Positions 15,491-40,786 of a stretch of 44,651 nucleotides of DNA are shown one piece after another. Origin of the DNA: an uncultured Eubacteriales bacterium (GTDB taxonomy: Bacteria > Bacillota > Clostridia > Oscillospirales > Oscillospiraceae); contig ONPF01000023.1 in the NCBI GenBank assembly GCA_900319635.1, positions 1-44,651 on the forward strand, read 5' to 3'. The translations under genes were made by a program, and so were the position numbers. The notes under the pieces were generated by a model, which saw nothing but the letters and a program-made list of their open reading frames with translations, did not search any database and was not told the origin of the DNA. Numbering within the stretch: the stretch's first letter is position 1; the number at the start of each line of letters is the position of its first letter.

Positions 15491-15801
15491 CTTCTGACGT
15501 GGTGGCGCGGAGGAAACTAAATCCGAGTCGGTATCCAAATCGAAGCCCAACGGAGTGGGTTCGATTTGGAAAAGGAAGAAGGACTCAGCAGAAGTGTAGT
15601 TTTCGCGGCTCTTTCGCAAACCGCATAAACGGAACGGAGCTGAGTTCTTTGGACATGGTGTACCGGAAGGAAAAAGATAGAATCAGAATCCAAATTGAAG
15701 CCCAGCGAAGCGGGTTCGATTTGGGAAAGGAAGAAGGACTCAGCGGATGTGTAGTTTTCGCGGCTCTTTCGCAAACCGCGGAAACGGAACGGAGCTGCGT
15801 T
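15491..15801 (-). repeat. Two tandem ~155-bp imperfect repeats downstream of tRNA-Leu
   Basis: Two units, 15491-15646 and 15647-15801, align along their length (155-156-base period); part of a third flanks the left side and the same boundary recurs at 15802. Each holds a long hairpin (for example 15532-15571 with TCGAAGCCCA/TGGGTTCGA arms), a shared GAAGGACTCAGC block and a CGCGG/CCGCG hairpin. Read on the minus strand every unit begins right after CACCA. Short reading frames across these repeats look like translated repeat, not genes. Confidence 0.85.
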
Positions 15802-15813
15802 CTTCTGACGTGG

Positions 15814-15837
15814 TGGTGCGGGTAACAGGACTCGAAC
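15814..15837 (-). pseudogene. Duplicated 3' end of tRNA-Leu
   Basis: These 24 bases are identical to the last 24 bases of the tRNA-Leu gene (15961-15984): T-loop, T-stem 3' strand, acceptor 3' strand and CCA. The rest of a tRNA is absent. It marks the distal end of a 147-bp unit that begins at the real tRNA. Confidence 0.9.
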
Positions 15838-15960
15838 TCCCTAAAGGGACTAGGAAACGCTTTGCGTTTCCGTCGCTGCCGCTGCCCTTCGGGCAGGCAG
15901 AACCAAGTTACCCCTTCCCCGTATCAAGCAGAGCAACCGCCAAGGGGCGGCTGTTCTGCT
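15838..15960 (-). repeat. Body of a 147-bp unit between tRNA-Leu and its 3'-end copy
   Basis: Read from the tRNA (minus strand) it holds a hairpin abutting CCA (15927-15960), an inverted tRNA-3'-end-like segment (15901-15926), and three short hairpins: CTGCCC-ttc-GGGCAG (15882-15896), GGAAACGC-ttt-GCGTTTCC (15853-15871) and TCCC-taaa-GGGA (15838-15849). With the 24-base tRNA copy the period is 147. No protein is encoded. Confidence 0.75.
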
Positions 15961-16043
15961 TGGTGCGGGTAACAGGACTCGAACCTGCACGGTTTCCCAC
16001 TGGAACCTAAATCCAGCGTGTCTGCCAATTCCACCATACCCGC
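15961..16043 (-). tRNA. tRNA-Leu (anticodon TAG)
   Basis: Full cloverleaf on the minus strand with encoded CCA. The acceptor GCGGGTA pairs with TACCCGC. The anticodon stem CTGGA/TCCAG encloses a loop carrying TAG. There is a short variable arm for the class II type, and the T-loop is TTCGAGT. It is downstream of tRNA-Gly and probably co-transcribed, although a terminator-like hairpin separates them. Its 3' end is duplicated 147 bases downstream. Confidence 0.92.
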
Positions 16044-16048
16044 ATATG

Positions 16049-16079
16049 AAAAAAACCCATTGCGAAACGCAACGGGTTC
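16049..16079 (-). terminator. Terminator-like hairpin between tRNA-Gly and tRNA-Leu
   Basis: On the minus strand AACCCGTTGCG/GCAATGGGTT (one mismatch-tolerant pair) is followed by seven T residues. If fully active it would leave tRNA-Leu without a visible promoter, so it is probably leaky or a processing signal. Confidence 0.75.
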
Positions 16080-16083
16080 AAGA

Positions 16084-16159
16084 TGGAGCGGGCAACGAGG
16101 CTCGAACTCGCTACCTCCACCTTGGCAAGGTGGCGCTCTACCGGATGAGCTATGCCCGC
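16084..16159 (-). tRNA. tRNA-Gly (anticodon GCC)
   Basis: A 76-base cloverleaf on the minus strand with encoded CCA. The acceptor GCGGGCA pairs with TGCCCGC, the discriminator is T, the anticodon loop is TTGCCAA (GCC), and the T-loop is TTCGAGC. A strong promoter lies just upstream. Confidence 0.95.
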
Positions 16160-16172
16160 ATCAGCAAGGGAT

Positions 16173-16200
16173 ATATTACCACAAAATAAGCGAATGTCAA
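16173..16200 (-). promoter_or_regulatory. Promoter of tRNA-Gly (and probably tRNA-Leu)
   Basis: On the minus strand a consensus TTGACA (16195-16200) and TAATAT (16173-16178) are 16 bases apart, 14 bases from the tRNA 5' end. Confidence 0.85.
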
Positions 16201-16250
16201 GAACTTTTTTCTTATGCTTTTAAATCCGGAAGGAAAAGAATAAAAAATAC

Positions 16251-16279
16251 TTGTACGGGAGCGAGCCTGGTGGTATTCT
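16251..16279 (+). promoter_or_regulatory. Promoter of ddl
   Basis: TTGTAC (16251-16256), 17-base spacer, TATTCT (16274-16279), 40 bases before the ddl start codon. Confidence 0.65.
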
Positions 16280-16319
16280 ATACCAGTATGGAAAATCACC
16301 CGGAAAGAAGGATTTTTGC

Positions 16320-17393
16320 ATGAAGATCGTTGTTCTCGGCGGCGGCATCAGCACAGAACGTCAGGTCTCTCTGGTATCGGCGACCTCTGTCTGCCGCGCG
16401 CTGCGCAGTCTTGGCCATCGGGCCGTGTTTGTGGATCTGTACCTGGGAATTGAAGAGTCAGACGTCCCTCTTGAGCAGCTGTTTGACGCGCCGGATGGGC
16501 GCTGCGGGCAGGTGGGTATCGAAAAAACAGCGCCGGATCTGGCCGCGGTTCGCGCGTCCCGCAAGGATCAGAGCGACAGCCGGATCGGAAAAAACGTACT
16601 GGAGATCTGCAAGCTCGCCGACTGTGTGTATCTGGGCCTGCACGGGCAGGACGGAGAAGACGGAAAGATCCAGGCCACGCTTGATCTGCTGGGCGTGCCC
16701 TATACCGGCTCCGGCCCGCTGGGCAGCGGTATGGCCATGGACAAGGCTGTGGCCAAGCGCATCATGGAAAGCTGCGGCGTGCACACCCCGGCATGGCAGG
16801 AGCTCCGCTATACGGCGGAACAAATCCCCGCGCTGGCGGAGACGCTGCCGGTTCCCTGCGCGGTGAAGGTGGTGGGGGGCGGCTCCTCCATCGGCGTGGC
16901 GCTTCCGGAGACGCGGGAGGAGCTTCGCAGCGCGCTGGAGGAGATTCTTCGCTACGGCGACCGTGTCGTTGTGGAAGAGAAGATCCGCGGGCGCGAGCTC
17001 ACGGTGCCTGTGCTGGATGAGAAGGCGCTCAGCCCCATTGAGATCGTCCCGCCTCAGGGCAAGGACTTTGACTATGTCTCCAAGTACCAAAGCGGCGACG
17101 AGGGCGCAAGAGAGCTTTGCCCCGCCCCCATCAGCGAGGAGGAGCGGGCGCTGGTTTCCGAGGCTGCGCTGCGCATTCATGCTGCGCTGGGGCTTTCCGT
17201 CTATTCCCGGGCAGATTTCATCCTGGACGGGGAGGGGAGAGCCTGGTGCCTGGAGGTCAATACCCTGCCCGGCATGACGCCCAACAGCCTGATCCCCAAG
17301 GCGGCAAAGCTGGAAGGCCTGAGCTACGCCGCGCTTTGTGAGAAGATCGTGTTGCTGAGCCTGGCACAGCGCAGGAAAGAGCGCGCTTGTTAA
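16320..17393 (+). CDS. ddl: D-alanine--D-alanine ligase
   Basis: A 357-residue ATP-grasp ligase that joins two D-alanines for peptidoglycan precursor synthesis. Motifs are MKIVVLGGGISTERQVSLVS (N-terminal substrate loop), LHGQDGEDGKIQ, YTGSGPLGSGMAMDK, KVVGGGSSIGV (ATP-binding loop), the omega-loop ending LCPAPIS, and LEVNTLPGMTPNS (metal and substrate). The omega-loop has Glu where E. coli DdlB has Tyr216; as far as I recall this is common in clostridial Ddl and is not evidence of vancomycin resistance. The ATG at 16320 follows AAGGA. Its product feeds MurF encoded at 12.9 kb. Confidence 0.93.
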   Translation: MKIVVLGGGISTERQVSLVSATSVCRALRSLGHRAVFVDLYLGIEESDVPLEQLFDAPDGRCGQVGIEKTAPDLAAVRASRKDQSDSRIGKNVLEICKLADCVYLGLHGQDGEDGKIQATLDLLGVPYTGSGPLGSGMAMDKAVAKRIMESCGVHTPAWQELRYTAEQIPALAETLPVPCAVKVVGGGSSIGVALPETREELRSALEEILRYGDRVVVEEKIRGRELTVPVLDEKALSPIEIVPPQGKDFDYVSKYQSGDEGARELCPAPISEEERALVSEAALRIHAALGLSVYSRADFILDGEGRAWCLEVNTLPGMTPNSLIPKAAKLEGLSYAALCEKIVLLSLAQRRKERAC

Positions 17394-17427
17394 CAGATTC
17401 GTGATGTTTTGTCGTGGGAATCTGTTA
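17391..17427. repeat. 10-bp inverted repeat between ddl and the zinc-ribbon gene
   Basis: TAACAGATTC (17391-17400) and GAATCTGTTA (17418-17427) are perfect inverted arms around a 17-base loop. The right arm overlaps a TACAAT -10-like sequence (17426-17431), so the site could be an operator or a weak terminator of ddl. Its role is not clear. Confidence 0.5.
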
Positions 17428-17467
17428 CAATAAAGAATCAGAAATTCGCTTTGTTTCAGGTGATTCC

Positions 17468-17872
17468 ATGAGAGAAAGACTGATACAATTTATGGCTGGC
17501 AGGAACGGGAACGATGCGCTGAACCGTTTCCTGGTTGTCGTGGAGATTGTGCTGCTGGTGCTGTCGCTGCTGTTGGGCGGCAGGATCTCAGCCCTGTTGT
17601 ATCCCCTGTTTCTGATCCTTCTGGTGCTCACGTATTATCGGATGTTTTCCCGCAATCTATACAAGCGGCAGATAGAAAACGCCAAATACTGGGAACTGAG
17701 ATCCAGGGTGCTGGGCAATTTCCGCCTGCTGAAGGAGCGCTGGGTGCAGCGCAAGGACTATCGCTTTTTCTGCTGCCCCTCCTGCCATGCGGCGCTGCGC
17801 GTGCCCCGGGGGAGAGGGAAGATCAAGATCGTCTGCCGCAAGTGCGGCACCTCCTTCGTGAGGAAGTCCTGA
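17468..17872 (+). CDS. Membrane-anchored zinc-ribbon protein of unknown function
   Basis: A 134-residue protein with two adjacent hydrophobic segments (about residues 20-37 and 41-57), a basic linker, and a C-terminal zinc ribbon: CPSC, a ~16-residue basic hairpin, then CRKC (four Cys near residues 103-127). The ribbon would face the cytoplasm if the hairpin inserts normally. The start at 17468 has AGGTG upstream. Its stop is immediately followed by the ATG of the DUF5685 gene, so it leads a three-gene operon with that gene and a J-protein. I do not recognise a named family. Confidence 0.75.
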   Translation: MRERLIQFMAGRNGNDALNRFLVVVEIVLLVLSLLLGGRISALLYPLFLILLVLTYYRMFSRNLYKRQIENAKYWELRSRVLGNFRLLKERWVQRKDYRFFCCPSCHAALRVPRGRGKIKIVCRKCGTSFVRKS

Positions 17873-18721
17873 ATGTTCGGCTATCTCACGGCCAATACCG
17901 AGCTGCTGACGCCGGAGGAGCTGGAGCGCTATAAGGCCTGCTACTGCGGCCTCTGCCGCAGTCTGCAGAAGCGGCACGGCCAGGCCTCTCGCCTTACGCT
18001 CAATTATGACATGACCTTCCTGGTGCTGCTGCTCCAGTCTCTGTATGAGCCAGAGGAGACCCGGGGAGAGGATACCTGCCTGCCCCATCCCCTGCAGGCG
18101 AGAGCCTGGCAGCGCAGCGAGGCCAGCGACTACGGGGCGGATCTGAACGTGGCTCTTGCCTACCTCAAATGCCTGGACGACTGGGAGGATGAGGGCAGCC
18201 TGAAGGCCCTTGCCCAGGCGGAGACCCTGCGCGGCGCCTACGAGCGGGTCTGCAGGGACTATCCCAGACAGTGCGCCGCGATTTCCCGGGGAATGGAAGC
18301 CCTCCACGCTCTGGAGCGGGAGCGGAAAGAGGATCCCGACGCGGCCGCCGCCTGCTTCGGCGGCCTGCTGGGCGAGCTCTTCGTCTGGCGGGAGGATCGC
18401 TGGAGCGAGACGCTGCGCCGCATGGGGGACGCGCTGGGGCGCTGCCTCTATGTGATGGACGCCTGTATGGATCTGGACGGGGACGCCACCTGGAACCGCT
18501 ACAATCCGTTTCGCCGCTATTACGGCCTCAGCAACAACGAACAGCGCTTTCGCTCCATCATGAACATGCTGCTGAGCGATTGCCTCATGGCTTTTGACCG
18601 GCTCCCGCTGGTGCAGGACGCTTCGATTTTGAAGAACATCCTCTGCGTGGGGCTTTGGACACAGTTTGACCGGAAATATAAAGGGAAGAAGGAGACCGCG
18701 GATGGCTCAGGATCCGTATAA
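17873..18721 (+). CDS. DUF5685-family helical protein with Asp-rich motifs
   Basis: A 282-residue, mostly alpha-helical soluble protein. The N-terminus MFGYL and the [11 protein letters not shown] segment (Cys23, Cys25, Cys28) match the DUF5685 family, found in Firmicutes and of unknown function. Two Asp-rich stretches stand out: DDWED (102-106; DDxxD pattern) and DACMDLDGD (196-204; DxxxD), followed by NRYNPF. Their pattern and spacing recall the metal-binding motifs of all-alpha isoprenoid synthases; this is my inference and no activity is known. It starts at the base after the upstream stop, and its end overlaps the J-protein gene by 20 bases. Confidence 0.8.
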
Positions 18722-19379
18722 AGTCCTCGGCGTCTCGCCGGATGCCTCCGATGAGGAGATCAAAAAGGCGTACCGGGATCTGACAAAGAAATACCATCCG
18801 GATCTGAACCCCGGAGATGAGCGTGCGGCGCAGAAAATGCATGACATCAATGCCGCCTACGACGCCATCAAAAACGGCACTGCGCAGCAGCAGAGCTACG
18901 GCGGGGGAGCGGGAGCCCAGCAGGCCTATGGCACCTACAACTGGGCGGGCTTCGGCGGTTTCAATCCCTACACCTGGTATCAGGAGCAGGCGAGGCAGAC
19001 CCGGCCCACGGAGCGGAGCGAGTATACCGCGGCACGCAATTTCATCCGCAACCGCATGTATAACGAGGCGCTGACCGCGTTGAGCGGCGTTCCTGCCGTG
19101 GAGCGGGACGGACGCTGGTATTTCCTCAGCGGCGTTGCCAAAATGTATCAGGGCAATAAAATTGCCGCCATGGAGGACGCCCGACGCGCTGTGGAGCTGG
19201 ATCCGGACTGCGAGGAATACCAAAATCTGCTCCGGCAGCTGGAGAGCGGGGGAGACTTTTATACCAACTATTCCTCCAACTATCAGGGCGGGCTGAACAT
19301 GGATCGCCTTTGCATGACGCTCTGTGCGTCTCAGCTCTGCTGCGGCCCTGCTTGCGGCTGGCGCTTCATGTGCTGCTGA
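18702..19379 (+). CDS. J-domain protein with TPR-like region and Cys-rich tail
   Basis: A 225-residue DnaJ-like co-chaperone. Residues 4-65 form the J-domain with HPD at 32-34 ([10 protein letters not shown]), which stimulates an Hsp70 ATPase. A Gly/Ala/Gln/Tyr-rich linker follows, then about residues 119-190 form a TPR-like helical pair ([15 protein letters not shown] and [18 protein letters not shown]). The last ~23 residues contain seven Cys (pattern CxxxC, CC, C, CC). It lacks the DnaJ zinc-finger and C-terminal peptide-binding domains, so it is a specialised J-protein, not the general DnaJ. ATG 18702 has AAGGAG 8 bases upstream. Its neighbours suggest the DUF5685 protein as client or partner. 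Confidence 0.88.
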
Positions 19380-19382
19380 CCG

Positions 19383-19420
19383 CAAAAAAGGAAAACGCGT
19401 GACGGCGTTTTCCTTTTTGC
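19383..19420 (+). terminator. Terminator of the zinc-ribbon/DUF5685/J-protein operon
   Basis: A 14-bp perfect stem (19385-19398 with 19405-19418) with flanking A and T runs. It probably also serves the convergent ATPase gene ending at 19429. Confidence 0.9.
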
Positions 19421-19428
19421 GTATTTTG

Positions 19429-20346
19429 TCATTCTTTTGGGGGAAACAATTTTTCGAGCAGCTGCCCGGCGTAAGCGGATAAGCCTGGAAAATCCATGTG
19501 GGGACGGTACAGAGCTTCCAGCTCGTCGTGGAGCGCCTTGGCCTCCCGCAGCGCCTCCACGGCCTTCTCCAAATACGGCTGATCTGCTTGTTCCGAATCG
19601 GGTACGGCAGTAAACGCAAGCTTTTTCTCCGGCAGCAGGAGTGCCTCCGCCTCATCGGGAAACAACGGCGAGGGGCAGAGGATGACGTCCCAGCCCCGAC
19701 GCTGCACCTCCTCCGCGGCTGCCGGCAACGCGGCAGCGGGAGCGGGAGATACAGCGTAGTCTGCGGACGCCGGGGGAAGGCGAAGCAAGCCCTTGCAGGT
19801 GATCGCGCTGGCAAAGCGCCGGGCCATGCGGCCTTGCTTTTCCTGCGCAGGAAGAGCGGACAGCGTGTCGCGGAGCTGCTCATCTGAGCAGCAATGCGTG
19901 CGTTCGTTGTCCCGCGGACACGCGGCAAGAAGCGCGTAGGCGCGGCGATAACAGGCCTTGTATGCCGTCTGCAGCGTACGGAGCTCTTTTTTCTCGACAC
20001 TGGAAAATGGAGCAGAGAAGAACGCGCCGAGGTTTACATAATCTCCATTCGCCCCGAAAAGCTCGGGCTCGATTACATGGGGAGCCGTGCCGTCCACCCA
20101 GGCAAGGCCCAGGGCGGGCAGGTAGACCCCGTCCAGCGAATCCGGGTCGCCGGAGCAGAGCACCCGCTCTACCTCCATCCCGCGTCTGTCCGCCTCCCGG
20201 GCGATGGCGCGGAGGAGGGTGGATTTTCCGGTTCCCGGGCCGCCTTTGAGGATGTGCAGGAAGGCGTCCGCGCGATGCGGGAACCCGCCATAGAGGGAGT
20301 AGAAGCCCTCGGCGGTGTTCCCGCCAAGGAAGTAGTCCTGAAACAT
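19429..20346 (-). CDS. P-loop ATPase of the PRK06851-like family
   Basis: A 305-residue cytoplasmic protein with Walker A GGPGTGKST (Lys41) directly after HILK, followed by the family-specific blocks CSGDPDSLDGVYLP and DGTAPHVIEPE and by VNLG. These occur in a conserved but uncharacterised Firmicutes ATPase family (PRK06851-type). Members I recall are ~360 residues with a second P-loop; this one is shorter and I see no second Walker A, so it may be the single-site form. A possible GAGGTG Shine-Dalgarno precedes ATG 20346. The role is unknown. It is divergent from the HAD phosphatase gene. Confidence 0.75.
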   Translation of the reverse strand: MFQDYFLGGNTAEGFYSLYGGFPHRADAFLHILKGGPGTGKSTLLRAIAREADRRGMEVERVLCSGDPDSLDGVYLPALGLAWVDGTAPHVIEPELFGANGDYVNLGAFFSAPFSSVEKKELRTLQTAYKACYRRAYALLAACPRDNERTHCCSDEQLRDTLSALPAQEKQGRMARRFASAITCKGLLRLPPASADYAVSPAPAAALPAAAEEVQRRGWDVILCPSPLFPDEAEALLLPEKKLAFTAVPDSEQADQPYLEKAVEALREAKALHDELEALYRPHMDFPGLSAYAGQLLEKLFPPKE

Positions 20347-20405
20347 AGCAGCACCTCTTTTCCCTGTATTTTATGCGAAAACAATGATCCTATGATTGGG
20401 AGCTG

Positions 20406-21053
20406 ATGCTTTTGTATTCCTGTATTTTTTTCGATTTTGACGGAACGCTCTACGACACCGTGGAGGGGATCACAAAATCCGTCCGCTATGCGCTGCAAAA
20501 GCGCGGCATGGACGCGGAGCTCTCCGCACTTCGCTGCTTTGCCGGGCCGCCGCTGACGGATATGTTTATGGAGAAATTCGCGTTTACTCTCCCGGAGGCG
20601 GAGCAGGCGGTGCGGGATTTCAGAGAGCGCTATGTTCCCATCGGCCTGTACGAGAGCCGCGCCTTCCCGGGAATGCGCGCATTCCTGGAAGCCCTGCGGA
20701 TGGAAGGCAAGAAGCTGGCCGTGTCTACCTCCAAGCCCCAGCCGCTGGCACAGGAGCTGCTGCGCCGGGAGGGGCTGGACGGCCTCTTCGACTGCATCTG
20801 CGGCGCCGGTGACGAGGGGGAGGGCAACGCCAAGTGGCAGGTGCTGCAGCGGGCGATGACCACCCTGGGCGCGAAGCCTGAAAGCAGCGTCCTTGTGGGA
20901 GACACCAAGTATGACGTGGCCGGGGCGCTGCGCTGCGGGATCCCCTGTATCGGCGTGGGCTACGGCTACGCCGTCCCCGGGGAGCTGGAGCAGGCCGGTG
21001 CCCTCACCGTTGCGCAGGATCTGGAAGAACTGAAAGCGCTGCTTTTGACGTAA
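20406..21053 (+). CDS. HAD-family phosphatase, phosphoglycolate phosphatase-like
   Basis: A 215-residue HAD hydrolase. Motif I is FFDFDGTLYDT (Asp nucleophile), motif II AVSTSKP, motif III is near the GNAKWQVL lysine, and motif IV VGDTKYDVAGA. A small helical cap lies between motifs I and II. Such enzymes release phosphate from small metabolites such as 2-phosphoglycolate or sugar phosphates. The closest named relatives by pattern are Gph/PgmB-type proteins; the substrate is not predictable. GGGAG lies close to the start (3 bases), so translation may be weak or a nearby codon may be used. Confidence 0.85.
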   Translation: MLLYSCIFFDFDGTLYDTVEGITKSVRYALQKRGMDAELSALRCFAGPPLTDMFMEKFAFTLPEAEQAVRDFRERYVPIGLYESRAFPGMRAFLEALRMEGKKLAVSTSKPQPLAQELLRREGLDGLFDCICGAGDEGEGNAKWQVLQRAMTTLGAKPESSVLVGDTKYDVAGALRCGIPCIGVGYGYAVPGELEQAGALTVAQDLEELKALLLT

Positions 21054-21056
21054 GGC

Positions 21057-21101
21057 GCAAAGAACGGCCGACCGGGCCAAAGCCTCGGTCGGCCGTTCTT
21101 T
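21057..21101. terminator. Bidirectional terminator between HAD and SLOG genes
   Basis: A perfect 14-bp stem (21061-21074 with 21086-21099) with an 11-base loop, A-run before and T-run after. It closes both convergent genes. Confidence 0.93.
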
Positions 21102-21603
21102 ATGCTATTGGGAGGGTAATGATCTCCAGACCCTGCTCTCGGGCGTAGAGGATGGTGTTGCGGGTGCCGCCGGCCTCTCCGTTATAGCAGGCCAGCAGGA
21201 GGGAGGCGTGGTTCACGAGATAGCGGTTGCGCGCCATCATGCAGCCGGGACTGTAGGCCTCCTGCAGCACCTTTACGCTGTCGGCAGCGTCAAGAAGACG
21301 CTGATAGCGCCGCTTCTGCTCGCCCGTCCAGCGCGCCGCCTGGCCGCGGAAGGGCACCGCCGCCTCCAGCGTCACGTCGCTGTGCACCTGGCGCAGCATC
21401 AGCACGCTCTCCGCAAAGTAGAGGTCGCAGCCCTCTGCCATGCCGCAGAGAAAGTGCCGGTAGCCCCGTCCGTAGAGCTCCACCAGCGCCTGCACGATAT
21501 CCATTTTCAGATCCAGACACCTGAGATCGTCCTCCCGGTAGCCCCAGGGCAGCTTGGAGGGTCGGTGACCGGTGAAGCAGCAGCTCACGGCGAGAAAGTT
21601 CAT
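21100..21603 (-). CDS. SLOG-family protein (YpsA/DUF1273-like)
   Basis: A 167-residue Rossmann-like protein. CFTGHRPSKL at the N-terminus, FLCGMAEGCDLYFAE in the middle and NHASLLLACYNGEAGGTRNTILYA near the end are the three glycine-containing loops that form the nucleotide-binding pocket of SLOG/YpsA proteins. YpsA influences cell division in Bacillus and Staphylococcus; the ligand is uncertain. ATG 21603 is preferred over 21624 because GGAGG lies 6 bases upstream. It is transcribed divergently from the FMN riboswitch with overlapping -35 elements. Confidence 0.85.
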   Translation of the reverse strand: MNFLAVSCCFTGHRPSKLPWGYREDDLRCLDLKMDIVQALVELYGRGYRHFLCGMAEGCDLYFAESVLMLRQVHSDVTLEAAVPFRGQAARWTGEQKRRYQRLLDAADSVKVLQEAYSPGCMMARNRYLVNHASLLLACYNGEAGGTRNTILYAREQGLEIITLPIA

Positions 21604-21638
21604 GGCAGCCTCCGCATGGCTCAATGATACACGCCGCT

Positions 21639-21667
21639 ATTGTAGCGAATAAATAAGGACTTGTCAA
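21639..21667 (-). promoter_or_regulatory. Promoter of the SLOG gene
   Basis: On the minus strand consensus TTGACA (21662-21667) and TACAAT (21639-21644) are 17 bases apart. Its -35 overlaps the -35 of the divergent ribU promoter. Confidence 0.85.
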
Positions 21668-21689
21668 AGGAAAGCTGTTGTGCTATACT
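21661..21689 (+). promoter_or_regulatory. Promoter of the FMN riboswitch-ribU transcript
   Basis: TTGTCA (21661-21666), 17-base spacer, TATACT (21684-21689), just upstream of the riboswitch P1 stem. Confidence 0.85.
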
Positions 21690-21694
21690 CACAT

Positions 21695-21802
21695 CGTCTT
21701 CAGGGCAGGGTGAAATTCCCGACCGGCGGTACAGTCCGCGAGCCTTCGGGCCGATCCGGTGCGATTCCGGAACCGACAGTATAGTCTGGATGGAAGAAGA
21801 CG
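21695..21802 (+). ncRNA. FMN riboswitch (RFN element)
   Basis: The P1 stem is CGTCTTC (21695-21701) with GAAGACG (21796-21802). Between them are the conserved RFN blocks AGGGCAGGGTGAAATTCCC, GACCGGCGGTACAGTCCGCG, GATCCGGTGCGATTCCGG, and CCGACAGTATAGTCTGGATG. Binding of FMN normally stabilises the aptamer. A terminator follows it directly, so control is by premature termination of the riboflavin transporter message when FMN is plentiful. Confidence 0.97.
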
Positions 21803-21838
21803 GGAAAATCTGATATTCCTGTCCTCTCATTTGTTGTG

Positions 21839-21871
21839 CCTGAAGTCGAACGGACTTCAGGTTGTTTTTTT
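21839..21871 (+). terminator. Riboswitch-controlled terminator before ribU
   Basis: CCTGAAGTC (21839-21847) pairs with GACTTCAGG (21853-21861), followed by a T-rich run ending just before the AGGAGG site. It is the expression platform of the FMN riboswitch. Confidence 0.93.
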
Positions 21872-21884
21872 AGGAGGAATCGAC

Positions 21885-22823
21885 ATGAAAACCGGAAATC
21901 TGAAACACATTCTGGCACTGCTGCTTGCGCTGCTGCTCCTGTTTGCCATGCTGCCTACCGCTTTTGCGGAAGGGGAGGGCCAGGACGAGAGCACGGAGGA
22001 GCAGGCGGCCGCTCCCGCGGAGGGCGAAGCGGAGGAATCCGCCGGGGAACAGAGCCAAGAGGAAGCAAAGCCGACCGGACTGCAGAAGCTCTGGAAAGAC
22101 ATTCGGGAAAACGGAGGCTTCCTGCTGGTTTGCCTGGCTGTCTTTGCGGGACTGTTCATCCTCGCCTGGCTCTTCGAGCGGATGCTGGTCAAAAACCGGA
22201 AGAGCTTTTCCGACACGCACTACATCGCCTATACCGCCATCTTTGCCACCATGGCAGCGGTGCTGATGCTGCTGGAGATCCCGCTGTTCTTTGCCCCCTC
22301 TTTCTATAAGCTGGATCTGAGCGAGCTGCCCGTCATGATCTGCACCTTCTATCTCGGCCCGGTGTCCGGCGTGGTGGCGGAATTTATCAAAGTTCTGCTG
22401 AAGCTTTTGCTGAAAGGCACCAGCACAGCCTTTGTGGGCGATTTTGCCAATTTTGCCGTTGGCTGCACCTTCGTGCTTCCCGCCAGCGTGATCTATCACG
22501 CCAAGCCCAGCAAGAAAACCGCGCTTCTCGGCATGGCAGTCGGTACCCTGGTGATGACGGTATTCGGCAGCTCCTTTAACGCGCTGTATCTGATCCCCAA
22601 ATTCGCGCAGCTGTTCCACATGGATCTTGACAGCATCGTTTCCATGGGAACAAAGGTGAACGGCAGCATCACCAGCGTCTACACCCTGGTACTGTATGCG
22701 GTGGTTCCCTTCAATCTTCTCAAGGGTGTGATCATCACTGCGCTTACCTTCCTGCTCTATAAGCGCATTTCGCCCTTGATGCACAAGGGAGACGCCCGCA
22801 GGGCGCGGAAAAAGAAAGTATAA
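21885..22823 (+). CDS. ribU: Riboflavin ECF transporter S component with signal-peptide extension
   Basis: A 312-residue membrane protein. From about residue 108 it matches RibU-type S components: IAYTAIFATMAAVLMLLEIP, FYKLDLSELPVMIC, FYLGPVSGVVAEFIKVLLKLLLKGT and FVGDFANFAVG, with six hydrophobic segments. It binds riboflavin and would work with a shared EcfA-EcfA'-EcfT module encoded elsewhere. Unusually, an N-terminal signal-like segment ending TAFA (about 1-26), an acidic Ala/Glu-rich linker (27-70) and an extra TM (about 83-105) precede the core; most RibU proteins are ~190-210 residues. ATG 21885 follows AGGAGG by 6 bases. The FMN riboswitch supports the substrate. Confidence 0.92.
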   Translation: MKTGNLKHILALLLALLLLFAMLPTAFAEGEGQDESTEEQAAAPAEGEAEESAGEQSQEEAKPTGLQKLWKDIRENGGFLLVCLAVFAGLFILAWLFERMLVKNRKSFSDTHYIAYTAIFATMAAVLMLLEIPLFFAPSFYKLDLSELPVMICTFYLGPVSGVVAEFIKVLLKLLLKGTSTAFVGDFANFAVGCTFVLPASVIYHAKPSKKTALLGMAVGTLVMTVFGSSFNALYLIPKFAQLFHMDLDSIVSMGTKVNGSITSVYTLVLYAVVPFNLLKGVIITALTFLLYKRISPLMHKGDARRARKKKV

Positions 22824-22830
22824 AGTTTTC

Positions 22831-22868
22831 ACTTGCTCCCCGGTTTTTTTCCCGGGGAGCTTGTTTTT
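22831..22868 (+). terminator. Terminator of ribU
   Basis: GCTCCCCGG (22835-22843) pairs with CCGGGGAGC (22852-22860) and is followed by TTGTTTTTT. Confidence 0.9.
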
Positions 22869-22889
22869 TGCGGCGGGAATTGGTAAAAT
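22861..22889 (+). promoter_or_regulatory. Probable promoter of the cytidylate-kinase-like gene
   Basis: TTGTTT (22861-22866) and TAAAAT (22884-22889) with a 17-base spacer. The -35 overlaps the T-run of the ribU terminator. Confidence 0.5.
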
Positions 22890-22913
22890 AATCGCTGACA
22901 AGGAGGGATGGCT

Positions 22914-23510
22914 ATGATCATTACCATCGGAAGACAGCATGGAAGCAACGGGCATCTGATCGCCGGCGGCCTGGCGGAGCGGCTGGGCTATCGCTGCCTG
23001 GACAAGGAGATTGTGGACCGGGCGGCGGAGGACTCCAATTTCAACAAGGCCATCCTTGCTTCTTATGACGAAAAGCGCATTTCACCCTATTTTTCCGGTT
23101 CGCTCCAGTACATGGGGGGAATGGGAGAGGGCTTCCGCCTGAGCACCCAGATCGCTGCTGCGCAGTTTGACGCCATTCGCAGCCTTGCCAACGAGGGCAA
23201 CTGCATTTTTGTGGGCCGCTGTGCCGACTATGTGCTGCGCAATCGGAAGGATCTGCTGCGCGTGTTCATCATGGCGCCCCAGGATTATCGGATCAGGACG
23301 ATGATGGAGCGCCGCCAGCTGGACGAGGAGCAGGCCAGACGGCTCATCAAGCAGGTGGACAAGGATCGCTCCAGCTATTATAAGTACTACACAGACCAGA
23401 TCTGGAGCGAGATCAACAACTATGACCTCTGTATCAACAGCGCGGTGACAGGGGTGGAGGGCGCCGTTTCCGCCATCGAGGGCGTGGTGCGCGCGCTGGA
23501 AAAGAAGTAA
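22914..23510 (+). CDS. Cytidylate kinase-like family protein
   Basis: A 198-residue P-loop kinase-fold protein of the Cytidylate_kin2/AAA_26 type. The N-terminus IITIGRQHGSNGHLIAGGLAERLG is the family's modified phosphate-binding loop. CIFVGRCADYVL, the DxxxR-rich lid region (RIRTMMERRQLDEEQARRLIKQVDKDRSSYYKYYT) and the YDLCINS strand also fit. These proteins are distant from true Cmk and their substrate is unproven. ATG 22914 is chosen over 22908 because AAGGAGG needs the 7-base spacing. It is a single gene between two terminators. Confidence 0.85.
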   Translation: MIITIGRQHGSNGHLIAGGLAERLGYRCLDKEIVDRAAEDSNFNKAILASYDEKRISPYFSGSLQYMGGMGEGFRLSTQIAAAQFDAIRSLANEGNCIFVGRCADYVLRNRKDLLRVFIMAPQDYRIRTMMERRQLDEEQARRLIKQVDKDRSSYYKYYTDQIWSEINNYDLCINSAVTGVEGAVSAIEGVVRALEKK

Positions 23511-23527
23511 GTAGAGGAATATCAATC

Positions 23528-23567
23528 AGCTCCCCCTGCGGATGAATCTTCCGCAGAGGGAGCTTTT
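23528..23567 (+). terminator. Terminator of the cytidylate-kinase-like gene
   Basis: A 14-15-bp stem (AGCTCCC...TGCGGA with TCCGCA...GGGAGCT, one bulge) followed by TTTT. Confidence 0.88.
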
Positions 23568-23575
23568 CATATTTA

Positions 23576-23670
23576 TACTAACACCTAATAGAAATCTTTG
23601 ATTCTTTCCGGCCAGAATTGCGCCATGCTTCGTTGCTTCCCTTGACCATATATCTCCATTATGCTCTGCG
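23576..23670. repeat. 95-bp dispersed repeat, copy 1
   Basis: Identical to 44557-44651 except for two bases (T/A at about 23602, C/T at about 23612). It lies between convergent genes. It holds no conserved ORF: the longest minus-strand frame has TGG in this copy and TGA in the other. The right boundary cannot be set because copy 2 runs off the window. Confidence 0.9.
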
Positions 23671-23686
23671 GGAAGCGCCTCGCCTG

Positions 23687-25753
<2,067 letters not shown>

Positions 25754-25754
25754 A

Positions 25755-26819
25755 TCACTCGACGTACATTACCCGGTACTGGGAAGCGCTGGATGAGAGA
25801 CTGAACTCCTCCAGCAGACCTCTGGTGCAGACGATCCGGTCGTCGCTGGTGACGAGGATCATCTCAAAGCCGCCGTACTGCCGCCAGTAGTTCAAGGCCT
25901 TTGTCTCACCCAGCACGAACATGGCGGTGGACAGGCAGTCCGCCATGGTTCCGTCCTCGCAGATGATGGTGACGGAGCGCAGGGAGCTGCCGCTGGGGTG
26001 CCCGGTGGCGGGATTGAGAATGTGGTGATAGGTGACGCCCTTGATGACGAAGTTGCGCTGGTAGGGGCCGCTGGTGACAACGGCGGTCTCTCCGACGCTG
26101 ATCACACCCACATAGCCGTCCGGGTCATCGGGATCCTGGATGGCTACCTTCCAGAGACTGCCGTCCGGCTTCAAGCCCAGGGTCTGGACATTGCCGCCCA
26201 GGGAGATGATGCCGCTCTTGACGCCGGCCTGACGCATGGCGTCGATGGCGTTTTCCGCGGCACAGCCCTTGGCCGCGGCGCCGAAGGTAAACTGGCCATA
26301 CTCCGGGATCGTCAGCGAATAGGAGCCGGAGGCGGGGAAGCTGGTGAGGGTCATCTTGTCAAAGCAGAGCCGGGACAGATCCTCGGCAATTTCCGCCTCG
26401 GTGGGCTTATAGTATTTCTGGTCGATAAAGCCCCAGCGCTTGACCAGCGGATAGATGCTCAGATCCAGAGCGCCGCCGCTCTGGTCATAGACGGTTTTGG
26501 CGGTGGTCAGCATCTTGGCGATCTGGGCAGAGACGACCACGCTGCTGCCGTTGGCATGGTTGATGGCATAGACAGTGCTGGTGGGCAGCTCCGGATCCAG
26601 CATGGCGTCCATGGCCATGATGACGCTCTCCGCCGCGTCCAGTCCGGCCTCGGCATTGTCGCCGTAGGCGGTGAGGGTCATGACCGTGTCCATGGCGTAG
26701 ATCTCCCGGCTGACCTTGCGGTTTTCACCGCAGGCGGGCAGGGAGAGCGCCATGCAGAGGCAGAGCAGCAGCGCGGCACAGCGCTTTGCGCGGTCAGAGA
26801 AGATCCTTGTGTGTTTCAT
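25755..26819 (-). CDS. apbE: ApbE-family FAD:protein FMN transferase (lipoprotein)
   Basis: A 354-residue exported lipoprotein. A 29-residue signal peptide ends in the lipobox LPAC, with Cys30 as the lipidated residue. The flavin-transferase domain shows AMDTVMTLTAYG, GALDLSIYPLVKRWGF, FGAAAKGCAAENA, SLGGNVQTLG and HHILNPATGHPSG, and the metal-binding end DCLSTAMFVLG. ApbE attaches FMN to Ser/Thr of target proteins outside the membrane (for example Rnf or NQR subunits and extracellular flavoproteins). No such target is in this window. It overlaps the aldo/keto reductase by 26 bases and abuts recG. Confidence 0.93.
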   Translation of the reverse strand: MKHTRIFSDRAKRCAALLLCLCMALSLPACGENRKVSREIYAMDTVMTLTAYGDNAEAGLDAAESVIMAMDAMLDPELPTSTVYAINHANGSSVVVSAQIAKMLTTAKTVYDQSGGALDLSIYPLVKRWGFIDQKYYKPTEAEIAEDLSRLCFDKMTLTSFPASGSYSLTIPEYGQFTFGAAAKGCAAENAIDAMRQAGVKSGIISLGGNVQTLGLKPDGSLWKVAIQDPDDPDGYVGVISVGETAVVTSGPYQRNFVIKGVTYHHILNPATGHPSGSSLRSVTIICEDGTMADCLSTAMFVLGETKALNYWRQYGGFEMILVTSDDRIVCTRGLLEEFSLSSSASQYRVMYVE

Positions 26820-27822
26820 AGAATTCCCTATAATCCTTCAGCATGTATTTCAGCAGATTGGGCGTGTCCAGCTGGTAGGGGCAGCGGCTGGCGCAGCTGC
26901 GGCACTCCAGGCAGTCCTCGATCTTGTTCATCTTGGCCTGCCATTCCGGCGTCATGTACTGCTGCCAGGGGCTGCGGCGCAGGAGCATGTTCATCCGGGC
27001 GCAGTTGCGGATCTCGATCCCCACAGGGCAGGGCATGCAGTAGCCGCAGCTGCGGCAGAAGGAGCCGGAGAGCTCCTGCCGCTCCTTTTGGATAAAGGCG
27101 GCAAGCTCTTCGTCCAGATCGGGATCCTCCTCGGCCACCGTCAGCCACTGGTGCAGCTCCTCCATGGTCTGGATCCCCCAGATGGGAACCACGTTGGGGT
27201 ACTGCTTCATAAAGGCGTGGCAGGCGCGGACGTTTGTGAGCATGCCGCCGGCCAAGCCCTTCATGGCGATATAGCCCATTCCGGCCTCCCGGCACTTGTC
27301 CGCCAGAGCAAGGTCTCGCTCGGAGGAGATGTAGCTGAAGGGGAACTGCAGCGTTTCAAAGAGACCGGAGGCGATGCATTCCTCCGCCACCTTGACCCGG
27401 TGGGTGGTGACGCCGATGTGGCGGATCCAGCCCCGCTCCCTGGCCTCCAAGGCGCCTGCGTAGGCACCGTTGGGATCCTTCGGATCCGGCACCTCCGGCA
27501 CCTGGTGGAACTGAAAGAGGTCGATGTAGTCCGTTTTCAGCATCCGCAGGCTGTTCTCAATATGGGCGAGAACGCCCTCCCGATCCCTCGCCTGGCTCTT
27601 GGTGGAGAGGACGATCTTGTCCCGCACGTCGGAGAGGGCGAGACCGATTTTCATTTCGCTGTCGGTATAGGCGTTGGCGGTGTCGAAATAGTTGATGCCG
27701 CCCTCGTAGGCCGCCCGGAGCAGCTTCACGGCGTAATCCACATCGCAGCGCTGCACGGGGAGACAGCCCATAGCAGTTTTGGTCACCAGCAGACCGGTAT
27801 TGCCAAGGGGAATTTTGTACAT
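26794..27822 (-). CDS. Aldo/keto reductase with C-terminal 4Fe-4S ferredoxin domain
   Basis: A 342-residue protein. The N-terminal ~270 residues form an AKR barrel: YFDTANAYTDSE (catalytic Asp and Tyr), LSTKSQ (Lys), LFQFHQV (His), and an NADP-binding C-terminal part. About residues 270-330 add a ferredoxin-like module with CRSCGYCMPCPVG and CLECRSCASRCP, enough Cys for two iron-sulfur clusters. This fused family is common in clostridia; substrates are unknown. ATG 27822 follows GGGAGGG by 7 bases. It is the first gene of the AKR-apbE-recG operon, driven by the promoter at 27911-27939. Confidence 0.9.
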   Translation of the reverse strand: MYKIPLGNTGLLVTKTAMGCLPVQRCDVDYAVKLLRAAYEGGINYFDTANAYTDSEMKIGLALSDVRDKIVLSTKSQARDREGVLAHIENSLRMLKTDYIDLFQFHQVPEVPDPKDPNGAYAGALEARERGWIRHIGVTTHRVKVAEECIASGLFETLQFPFSYISSERDLALADKCREAGMGYIAMKGLAGGMLTNVRACHAFMKQYPNVVPIWGIQTMEELHQWLTVAEEDPDLDEELAAFIQKERQELSGSFCRSCGYCMPCPVGIEIRNCARMNMLLRRSPWQQYMTPEWQAKMNKIEDCLECRSCASRCPYQLDTPNLLKYMLKDYREFYETHKDLL

Positions 27823-27858
27823 AAAGAACCCTCCCTGGAAAAAAATTAAAAACAAGGC

Positions 27859-27887
27859 TTTACATTTGAAGCGGGATTTGGTATAAT
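27859..27887 (+). promoter_or_regulatory. Promoter of tRNA-Arg
   Basis: TTTACA (27859-27864), 17-base spacer, TATAAT (27882-27887), 72 bases before the tRNA. It faces the minus-strand promoter at 27911-27939. Confidence 0.85.
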
Positions 27888-27910
27888 ACCCCCTGCTTCG
27901 GAATAAGGCC

Positions 27911-27939
27911 ATTATACCAGAAGAATCGAGCCTTGTAAA
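27911..27939 (-). promoter_or_regulatory. Promoter of the AKR-apbE-recG operon
   Basis: On the minus strand TTTACA (27934-27939), 17-base spacer, TATAAT (27911-27916). It is nearly as strong as, and similar in sequence to, the opposing tRNA-Arg promoter. Confidence 0.85.
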
Positions 27940-27958
27940 GTTGAAGCGAAAAGAATAT

Positions 27959-28035
27959 GCGGCCGTAGCTCAGCTGGATAGAGTGCCAGACTCCGACTCT
28001 GGAGGTCGTGGGTTCGAATCCCGTCGGCCGTACCA
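27959..28035 (+). tRNA. tRNA-Arg (anticodon CCG)
   Basis: A 77-base cloverleaf with encoded CCA. The acceptor GCGGCCG pairs with CGGCCGT (first pair G-U). The anticodon stem CCAGA/TCTGG encloses CTCCGAC (CCG). The T-arm is GTGGG-TTCGAAT-CCCGT. Its last 18 bases and downstream terminator recur twice at 144-base intervals. Confidence 0.95.
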
Positions 28036-28353
28036 AAAAACCGTCGCCCCAACAGGGGCGGCGGCTTTTTTGGCGCGGGAAAAGGGATTCGAACCGAGCG
28101 GTAGTGAATGGCGTGCCGGTGGCACGCCAGAGCCGCGAGGCGGCCCGCCCGCAGGCGGGGGATCCCGTCGGCCGTACCAAAAAACCGTCGCCCCAACAGG
28201 GGCGGCGGCTTTTTTGGCGTGGGAAAAGGGATTCGAACCGAGCGGTAGTGAATGGCGTGCCGATGGCACGCCAGAGCCGCGAGGCGGCCCGCCCGCAGGC
28301 GGGGGATCCCGTCGGCCGTACCAAAAAACCGTCGCCCCAACAGGGGCGGCGGT
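28018..28353 (+). repeat. 144-bp tandem array seeded by the 3' end of tRNA-Arg
   Basis: Units begin at 28018 (inside the tRNA T-loop), 28162 and 28306 (partial). The two full units differ at only two positions. Each contains the tRNA 3' end through CCA, a terminator hairpin, an inverted T-arm copy (28084-28095 and 28228-28239; exact reverse complement of 28011-28022), and three short hairpins: GGCGTGCC-ggt-GGCACGCC, GCCGC-gag-GCGGC and CCCGCC-cgca-GGCGGG. Translated frames across it (GFEPSGSEWRA type) are artefacts. The array separates tRNA-Arg from the GPH transporter gene. Confidence 0.95.
28035..28071 (+). terminator. Terminator of tRNA-Arg (repeated in each array unit)
   Basis: CCGTCGCCCC (28041-28050) pairs with GGGGCGGCGG (28055-28064), A-run before and T-run after. 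Copies occur at +144; the +288 copy has lost its T-run (GGTTTCTTG). Confidence 0.9.
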
Positions 28354-28397
28354 TTCTTGCGCAGCGGCGGGATTCGCTGCATTCTTTGTGCCGAGGC

Positions 28398-40710: not shown

Positions 40711-40786
40711 GCTGGTATAGCTCAGTCGGTAGAGCAGCTGATTCGTAATCAGCAGGTCGTGTGTTCGAGTCACATTACCAGCTCCA
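40711..40786 (+). tRNA. tRNA-Thr (anticodon CGT)
   Basis: A 76-base cloverleaf with encoded CCA. The acceptor GCTGGTA pairs with TACCAGC, the anticodon loop is TTCGTAA (CGT), and the T-arm is GTGTG-TTCGAGT-CACAT. Unlike tRNA-Leu and tRNA-Arg here, it has no duplicated 3' end. Confidence 0.95.

Follow-up and report, generated by a model that had tools for sequence, protein, structure and literature searches.

Why should a transfer RNA (tRNA) gene be followed by a short non-coding unit that ends in a second copy of that gene's own 3' end? The question is raised by a 44,651-nucleotide stretch of DNA from an uncultured Eubacteriales bacterium of the Oscillospiraceae (contig ONPF01000023.1; hereafter the window), in which tRNA-Leu(tag) and tRNA-Arg(ccg) are both followed by such units. 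An initial annotation proposed that they belong to a family of small non-coding elements at tRNA 3' ends, and this proposal holds: each tail copy matches its own host tRNA best, and the fold is conserved. Each unit lies between the tRNA 3' end and the following trailer, and contributes, besides a hairpin core, a trailer, an inverted T-arm half, and a duplicate of the host's 3' end. The explanation that we favour, at about an even chance, is that a small, structured repeat, itself non-autonomous, has been copied to tRNA 3' ends, where it is anchored and duplicates the tail of its host.

The units and their relatives

The window is contig C31 of a 2.16-Mb draft genome (G000) with 23 matches to the tRNA family RF00005, 22 of them above the cut-off. 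ARAGORN calls four tRNAs in the window, Leu(tag), Gly(gcc), Arg(ccg), and Thr(cgt). As annotated, the Leu and Arg genes each have a unit that ends in a copy of their own 3' end. The Arg site is the larger, an array with two full units. This array is a tandem repeat with a period of 144 bp (2.4 copies, 97% matches) that consists of two complete 144-bp units and a third copy of the trailer, and the Leu site has a single 147-bp unit closed by a perfect 24-nt tail copy; both units are too short to hold an integrase gene. At both sites the tail copy scores higher against its own tRNA than against any other tail in the genome (0/22 others ahead). The Arg and Leu bodies have little sequence in common, again in agreement with the annotation, and in the window our covariance model R1 (described below) matches the two Arg units only.

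The two sites had also been said to share one order of parts, and this stands for the hairpin abutting the CCA, the short hairpins, and the tail copy; the inverted tRNA-3'-end-like segment is where it weakens. In the Arg unit, the T-arm half of this segment matches the tRNA but the acceptor half does not (by eye), and 7 of the 22 other tails of the genome match the segment equally well or better because T-arm halves are alike among tRNAs. The Leu segment is weak (score 14, equalled or exceeded by 5 of the 22 other tails) and retains, by eye, a 7-bp complement to the tail copy, GGGTAAC:GTTACCC. The Leu hairpin that abuts the CCA has no T-run and is absent from the terminator listing. Directly behind the Leu unit stands a 155-bp tandem repeat (15533-15815, 1.8 copies, 89%), the hairpin of which resembles by eye the hairpin between two Leu-CAA units of another genome (L110 of G135).

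The same plan, i.e., tRNA 3' end, trailer, inverted T-arm half, hairpins, and duplicated tRNA 3' end, is present in the window's genome at Thr-GGT, Pro-CGG, Arg-ACG, Gly-CCC (two units), Arg-CCG, and Leu-TAG. At Ala-GGC there is a variant whose copy begins further upstream within the tRNA, as it also does at Pro-GGG of G109 and of G137. A composite-unit search of the genome added Leu-GAG and an orphan without a tRNA just upstream, and two named rumen/omasum metagenome-assembled genomes carry the same unit type at Pro-CGG and Gly-CCC. Across the order, a spread pattern made of a tRNA tail and, 45-75 bases on, an inverted T-arm half matched 142 of 295 genomes, and the control, the same pattern read backwards, matched 3. 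The corresponding figures for a sample of the phylum were 62 of 348 genomes and 6, and by eye many of these matches were tandem tRNAs or chance, while a few had real-looking inverted tails. An earlier scan (119/150 genomes) was contaminated by tandem tRNAs, its motif also matching the forward T-loop, and is not used as a prevalence. Eighty regions chosen from pattern matches, some of which showed no unit, contained units at Ser, Gln, Arg, Leu, Pro, Glu, Val, Ala, Gly, Tyr, Thr, and Met tRNAs. In two cases (L098, L112) the host is, by eye, an apparent transfer-messenger RNA (tmRNA) with the unit at its 3' end; ARAGORN calls no tmRNA there. Model R1 detected relatives of the Arg body in 82 of the 295 genomes of the order; under strict filters it matched 1 of 249 in the phylum sample, namely the window's own genome, with only two other genomes of the order among those listed.

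To what extent is a unit matched to its host? Four genomes (G000, G084, G004, and G109) were surveyed by means of their RF00005 matches and the regions downstream. From 140 distinct ARAGORN loci, 41 that are closely followed by another tRNA were set aside, and 99 operon-terminal loci were kept; a four-tRNA cluster of G084 (contig C14) was left out, two Leu-GAG loci entered through the element searches, and a spurious tRNA-Arg call in L015 is still one row of the survey and of the occupied/empty tables. An own-tail copy is present at 31 of the 99 loci (G000 8/18, G084 9/28, G004 9/24, G109 5/29; the Leu-GAG locus of the window's genome was found via its element, and without it the count is 7/17). 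The copies score at least 27 at the 31 occupied loci as opposed to at most 19 at the remaining 68, and at all 31 no tail of another tRNA in the same genome scores as high, which rules out chance repeats. For the inverted half, the own tRNA ranks first at 11 of the 31 loci when the full 24-nt tail is used; with the 12-nt T-arm half it is strictly best at 8 and best or tied at 16. Mismatches average 2.0 to the own tRNA versus 3.6 to others, and are below the mean of the others at 27 of the 31 loci, but part of this fit can be had without tailoring because the T-arm halves of tRNAs resemble one another. Two more G004 loci have the inverted half alone. The tailoring of sequence to the tRNA that had been proposed is thus strict for the tail copy and a tendency only for the inverted half.

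A set of 31 units was folded, and all have z-scores of -7.0 to -2.8 (median -4.5), most of them forming a junction P1[P2[P3]P4] in which the inverted and duplicated T-arm halves are predicted to pair and so close the core as helix P1. RNAalifold, applied to a plain alignment of 30 units, recovered P3 alone (7/9 pairs with double changes) because the lengths of the other stems vary. Model R1, built from 13 of these units with the structure supplied by hand, gave 43 matches across 66 sources, none of them in Escherichia coli. In the R1 alignment, 90.3% of the cells are paired versus 63.9% in shuffles, the covariation is 0.517 versus 0.167 in shuffles (0/500 as high) and at most 0.108 for slid structures, and double changes occur at 30 of 31 pairs, P2 being the least regular helix (78% paired). 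As this alignment was fitted to the model, and the loci were partly chosen by their inverted T-half so that the covariation of P1 is partly ascertained, P2-P4 are the cleaner evidence; P2 and P4 played no part in choosing the loci, and P3 did so only via its tip motif. The hairpin tips are conserved, and so is an internal loop (GTGAAT/CAGAG in one body type). Three false unit matches were dropped before the body, fold, and likeness comparisons.

Occupied loci, empty loci, and cores away from tRNAs

Occupied and empty tRNA loci, the comparison of which had been suggested at the outset, both exist among related species: within a genus, species often differ in whether the tRNA with a given anticodon carries a unit (e.g., Ala-CGC, Leu-CAA, Arg-ACG, Pro-CGG, and Leu-TAG). 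We made 47 such comparisons, 2 of which use the spurious tRNA call as the empty site. In three, the far trailer and the terminator of the ortholog without a unit are homologous (scores of 96 for Pro-TGG, 76 for Ala-CGC, and 54 for Leu-CAA, each the best among other terminators), and at Ala-GGC there is a weaker likeness (40 and 34). The tRNA-adjacent trailer (T1) never scores above 28 against an empty-site terminator. Pro-TGG is the cleanest pair because the flank beyond the terminator matches too, and Ala-CGC is weaker because a terminator of its type is also found behind the Ser-CGA unit of G109. In the clear pairs, trailer, inverted half, core, and tail copy were added between the CCA and the native terminator, and an addition within the duplicated tail would fit the sequences equally. 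At most loci, the flanks are too diverged for the insertion point to be judged.

It is noteworthy that core and trailer can have different histories at one locus. In G004, the tmRNA-like locus has a tandem pair of units whose trailers are 98% alike and whose bodies are 72% alike, one body being nearest to the window Arg body (0.91) and the other to a Ser body of G084 (0.85). Among 34 units, the mean likeness of bodies is 0.72 across the tRNAs of one genome (89 pairs) versus 0.62 between genomes (465 pairs), a difference that holds whether or not the amino acid is shared; trailers have no such same-genome likeness (0.58 versus 0.57-0.63). A counter-example to genome-wise bodies is Arg-CCG, which has a near-identical body in two genera. 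At five loci (L312, L320, L328, L332, and L365), units stand between tRNAs of one operon with, by eye, no terminator ahead of them, and therefore must be co-transcribed; at operon ends, a terminator-like trailer usually separates the tRNA from the core.

The prediction that model matches would be enriched next to tRNA genes is borne out. R1 has 56 matches in eight genomes, 30 of them given as loci, and 23 of these 30 lie downstream of a tRNA that ARAGORN calls on their own strand (4 of the 23 are later units of arrays). Of the other seven, one follows a tRNA-Ser 3' half and one a tmRNA-like end, two are beside a displaced Tyr tail, two have tRNA-like tail copies but no nearby tRNA, and one has neither. 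At the Ser locus (L314 1-150, G004), only the part of the tRNA from the anticodon loop onward precedes the unit, as if displaced. However, no tRNA is present in 16 short stretches around R1 matches, 13 of 15 in G049 and 3 of 8 in G162, where the core sits in another repeated frame; in these two genomes the core also lives in dispersed repeats. Those of G049 (L349-L361) form a family with several copies near contig ends. In the window's genome, a hairpin from the unit bodies recurs in other intergenic repeats, and there are dispersed repeats in which GGATTGCCAC and TCGCAATGACA, in this order, flank a hairpin that is exchangeable (L035, L037, L038, L048-L051), some of them close to contig ends.

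The duplicated T-loop-to-CCA core had been compared to the att sites of tyrosine integrases, and in one genome, G137, this very segment bounds a tyrosine-integrase island at tRNA-Tyr (L338, G137:C5 40001-60000). The island, of about 16.5 kb, has a Phage_integrase gene adjoining the tRNA, parts of lower G+C, and a TnpV gene; it is bounded by TTCGAATCCACCTTCCCCCACCA at tRNA-Tyr, repeated at the far end, after which comes a two-unit Tyr array. Most simply, the island would have entered at the same T-loop-to-CCA segment and so come to lie between tRNA-Tyr and an array that was already there. Genes between units are seen in few cases, and a cassette array with cargo genes is therefore not a general description. 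A family-2 glycosyltransferase gene (L054 2159-3262, minus strand), a possible cargo, lies between two Pro-CGG units of the window's genome. In G084, a sigma-factor gene, accompanied by eye by ABC-like open reading frames (ORFs), lies between tRNA-Ala and a displaced unit, and an ORF with a sub-threshold AAA_33 match is found near the Pro array.

How the units may arise

If the units are anchored copies of a non-autonomous repeat, the core would spread between tRNA genes by recombination or template switching, with the near-universal T-arm sequence serving as the homology for its transfer, and the tail of the host tRNA would be duplicated upon its arrival. The fold may be kept since copying would require a folded core, whether of single-stranded DNA or of RNA, and a further reason may be that P1 would hide the inverted segment from the real tRNA. 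A more ambitious form of this proposal, which we put forward tentatively and think rather unlikely, is that of self-retargeting non-coding mobile elements whose core inserts at any tRNA or tmRNA 3' end via the T-arm with the tail templated from the host, the other strand of P1 following by co-adaptation or copying. The RtT repeats of E. coli would then form a branch of the same strategy, either an ancient or an independent one. With the same plan across the Clostridial order, empty sites, separable cores and trailers, dispersed relatives, and a covarying fold, both origin and function are testable by comparison. If it is true that the ends come from each new host tRNA, this would be an unfamiliar way for an element to adapt to its target.

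Several observations weigh against this explanation. Another tRNA of the genome fits the inverted half better than the host does at 15 of the 31 surveyed loci, and in G412 the tail copy is only about 12-14 nt long and P1 is weak or absent-looking at some loci. Homology of the far trailer to the empty site is clear in only those 3 of 47 comparisons, and homology between the trailers T1 and T2 is detectable at 27 of 78 loci but not at 51, tandem arrays included. Within family f1, the contrast between bodies is small (0.72 versus 0.68 and 0.66). No candidate enzyme tracks the elements: Pfam RVT_1 is found in 3 of 15 element-rich versus 4 of 15 comparison genomes, and Y1_Tnp (PF01797) in 7 of 15 versus 6 of 15, the comparison genomes being without a spread-pattern match (one of them, G221, has one R1 match). 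Finally, conserved loops and covarying stems are also compatible with a functional RNA.

A functional RNA is the likeliest of the alternatives, if clearly less probable than the anchored repeat. The units would encode small RNAs released from tRNA transcripts, with roles in the stress response or in tRNA metabolism. The strong covariation, the conserved internal loop and tips, and the transcription of the five operon-internal units, which by eye have no terminator, all argue for it, and RtT of E. coli has been described (PMC4986893) as RNA from tRNA transcripts. However, the terminator-like hairpin that usually stands between tRNA and core at operon ends, the patchy occupancy of the same tRNA within one genus, and the dispersed copies away from tRNAs all speak against such a role.

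Hairpin covariation can also arise from templated correction, and this counts in favour of a passive replication product, which we consider unlikely. Template switching at palindromes, i.e., the terminator hairpin and the T-loop TTCGAA, would give a forward-inverted-forward zigzag of the tail that unequal crossing-over then amplifies, with the hairpins kept perfect by quasi-palindrome correction. The tail, trailer, and inverted segment of Thr-GGT in the window's genome can indeed form one long palindrome, and homologous trailers flank the unit at 27 of 78 loci. In contrast, the same core, with conserved non-stem sequence, stands at different tRNAs and in several families of the order, and transfer of the core is therefore needed rather than local rearrangement alone.

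Mobilization in trans by tyrosine integrases, which would make the units mini integrative elements with T-loop-to-CCA att sites, is in our judgment very unlikely. The direct repeat does span about the T-loop to the CCA at many loci, and the G137 island, with its Phage_integrase gene and TTCGAATCCACCTTCCCCCACCA at both ends, puts 16.5 kb between tRNA-Tyr and the Tyr array. Nevertheless, an integrating circle would bring the donor tail and trailer with it, yet each tail fits its own host and the units of one genome do not have trailers in common; moreover, some copies start further upstream in the tRNA, or in the acceptor as in the G412 units. Three other candidates were rejected: reverse transcription of tRNA transcripts, self-primed at the terminator hairpin, which the frequent ending of the inverted half at T54 had favoured, as RVT_1 had no match in the window's genome, G004, and G109 (drafts 92-95% complete); a Y1/RAYT transposase, the presence of which is uncorrelated with the elements; and a phage origin, as a search of viral contigs with one exact body pattern gave 0 matches.

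Features of the window and comparison with known systems

The features of the two sites are collected in the table below together with the other tRNAs. At gathering scores, Rfam reports the four tRNAs and one flavin mononucleotide (FMN) riboswitch in the window, the latter at 21692-21805 (124 bits).

Table. Positions of the tRNAs and of the parts of the Arg and Leu units in the window.
Feature	Position	Strand	Basis or remark
tRNA-Leu(tag), host of the Leu unit	15961-16043	-	ARAGORN
Hairpin abutting CCA of tRNA-Leu, without T-run	15926-15960	-	
Weak inverted tail segment, Leu unit	15903-15925	-	
Three hairpins, Leu unit	15876-15900, 15853-15871, 15838-15851	-	
Perfect 24-nt copy of the tRNA-Leu 3' end	15814-15837	-	
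tRNA-Gly(gcc)	16084-16159	-	ARAGORN
tRNA-Arg(ccg), host of the array	27959-28035	+	ARAGORN, Rfam RF00005
Trailer T1, Arg unit 1	28036-28071	+	terminator-like hairpin (both strands) abutting CCA
Inverted tRNA-tail segment, Arg unit 1	28071-28095	-	
T-arm half GGGATTCGAA of the Arg unit 1 inverted segment			5' strand of closing helix P1
Folded core P1[P2[P3]P4], Arg unit 1	28083-28167	+	model R1, 97.3 bits (sequence in model)
Duplicated tRNA-Arg 3' end, copy 1	28160-28179	+	start is 3' strand of P1
Trailer T1, Arg unit 2	28180-28215	+	
Inverted tRNA-tail segment, Arg unit 2	28215-28239	-	
Folded core, Arg unit 2	28227-28311	+	model R1, 96.0 bits (sequence in model)
Duplicated tRNA-Arg 3' end, copy 2	28304-28323	+	
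Third trailer-hairpin copy, end of array	28324-28358	+	
tRNA-Thr(cgt)	40711-40786		ARAGORN

Several known systems share individual features with the units. Tyrosine-integrase elements likewise have T-loop-to-CCA direct repeats and supply the tRNA end and trailer anew, but the units differ from them in their size of 120-190 bp, the lack of an integrase gene, the use of the tails of many tRNAs, and the internal inverted half. Modules of the core or of its hairpins are also found in intergenic repeats that are dispersed, as are the repetitive extragenic palindromes (REP) and bacterial interspersed mosaic elements (BIME), although these dispersed forms are without the tRNA-tail frame. The attC sites of integrons are similar in being folded imperfect inverted repeats, and once a gene, the glycosyltransferase gene mentioned above, stands between units; unlike in integron cassettes, a gene in this position is exceptional.

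The closest counterpart is found in E. coli, where the tyrT repeats have long been regarded as a local curiosity. The initial annotation knew of no named family with this plan, but this claim does not stand: the RtT repeats of tyrT/tyrV and the repeats behind the argACG genes of E. coli have the same plan. In the tyrT/tyrV region (L132) there are four matches to RF00391 (RtT), and these repeats resemble the Clostridial units in their 19-nt tail copy, inverted T-half, hairpins, and the formation of P1. Among 21 annotated tRNA genes in the chosen E. coli regions, 5 have a tail copy (two Tyr genes, argQ, argZ, and argV), 11 have none, and 5 leave no room for the comparison; in the argV-argQ region (L343), tail-copy repeats stand behind three of the four argACG genes. 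By eye, the Arg bodies resemble the Tyr bodies, and the tail copies are tRNA-specific. The Arg genes have only weak inverted halves (scores of 11-18), and their repeats have no RF00391 match at the gathering score.

What has been published on RtT (gene rttR) we take from PMC4986893, PMC2965389, and PMC7657543. According to the first of these, RtT is released as RNA from tRNA transcripts in E. coli, and Northern signals were obtained in Actinobacillus; the second notes a similarity of rtT to the dispersed BIME repeats. Searches of open PubMed Central text listed no description of such Clostridial elements.

The Clostridial units share the placement of RtT, adjoining a tRNA and carrying a copy of its own 3' end. 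However, RF00391 has no match at the gathering score in 19 Clostridial loci and none in 13 Clostridial genomes at E<=1 (the E. coli control being positive), and R1 reaches at most 11 bits on E. coli; by eye, the E. coli repeats also have no terminator-like trailer, unlike the Clostridial units. Because the two models fail to recognise each other's group, we keep the Clostridial units outside RtT, as a separate variant. They represent a plan that was already known from E. coli and that is found here at many more tRNA species.

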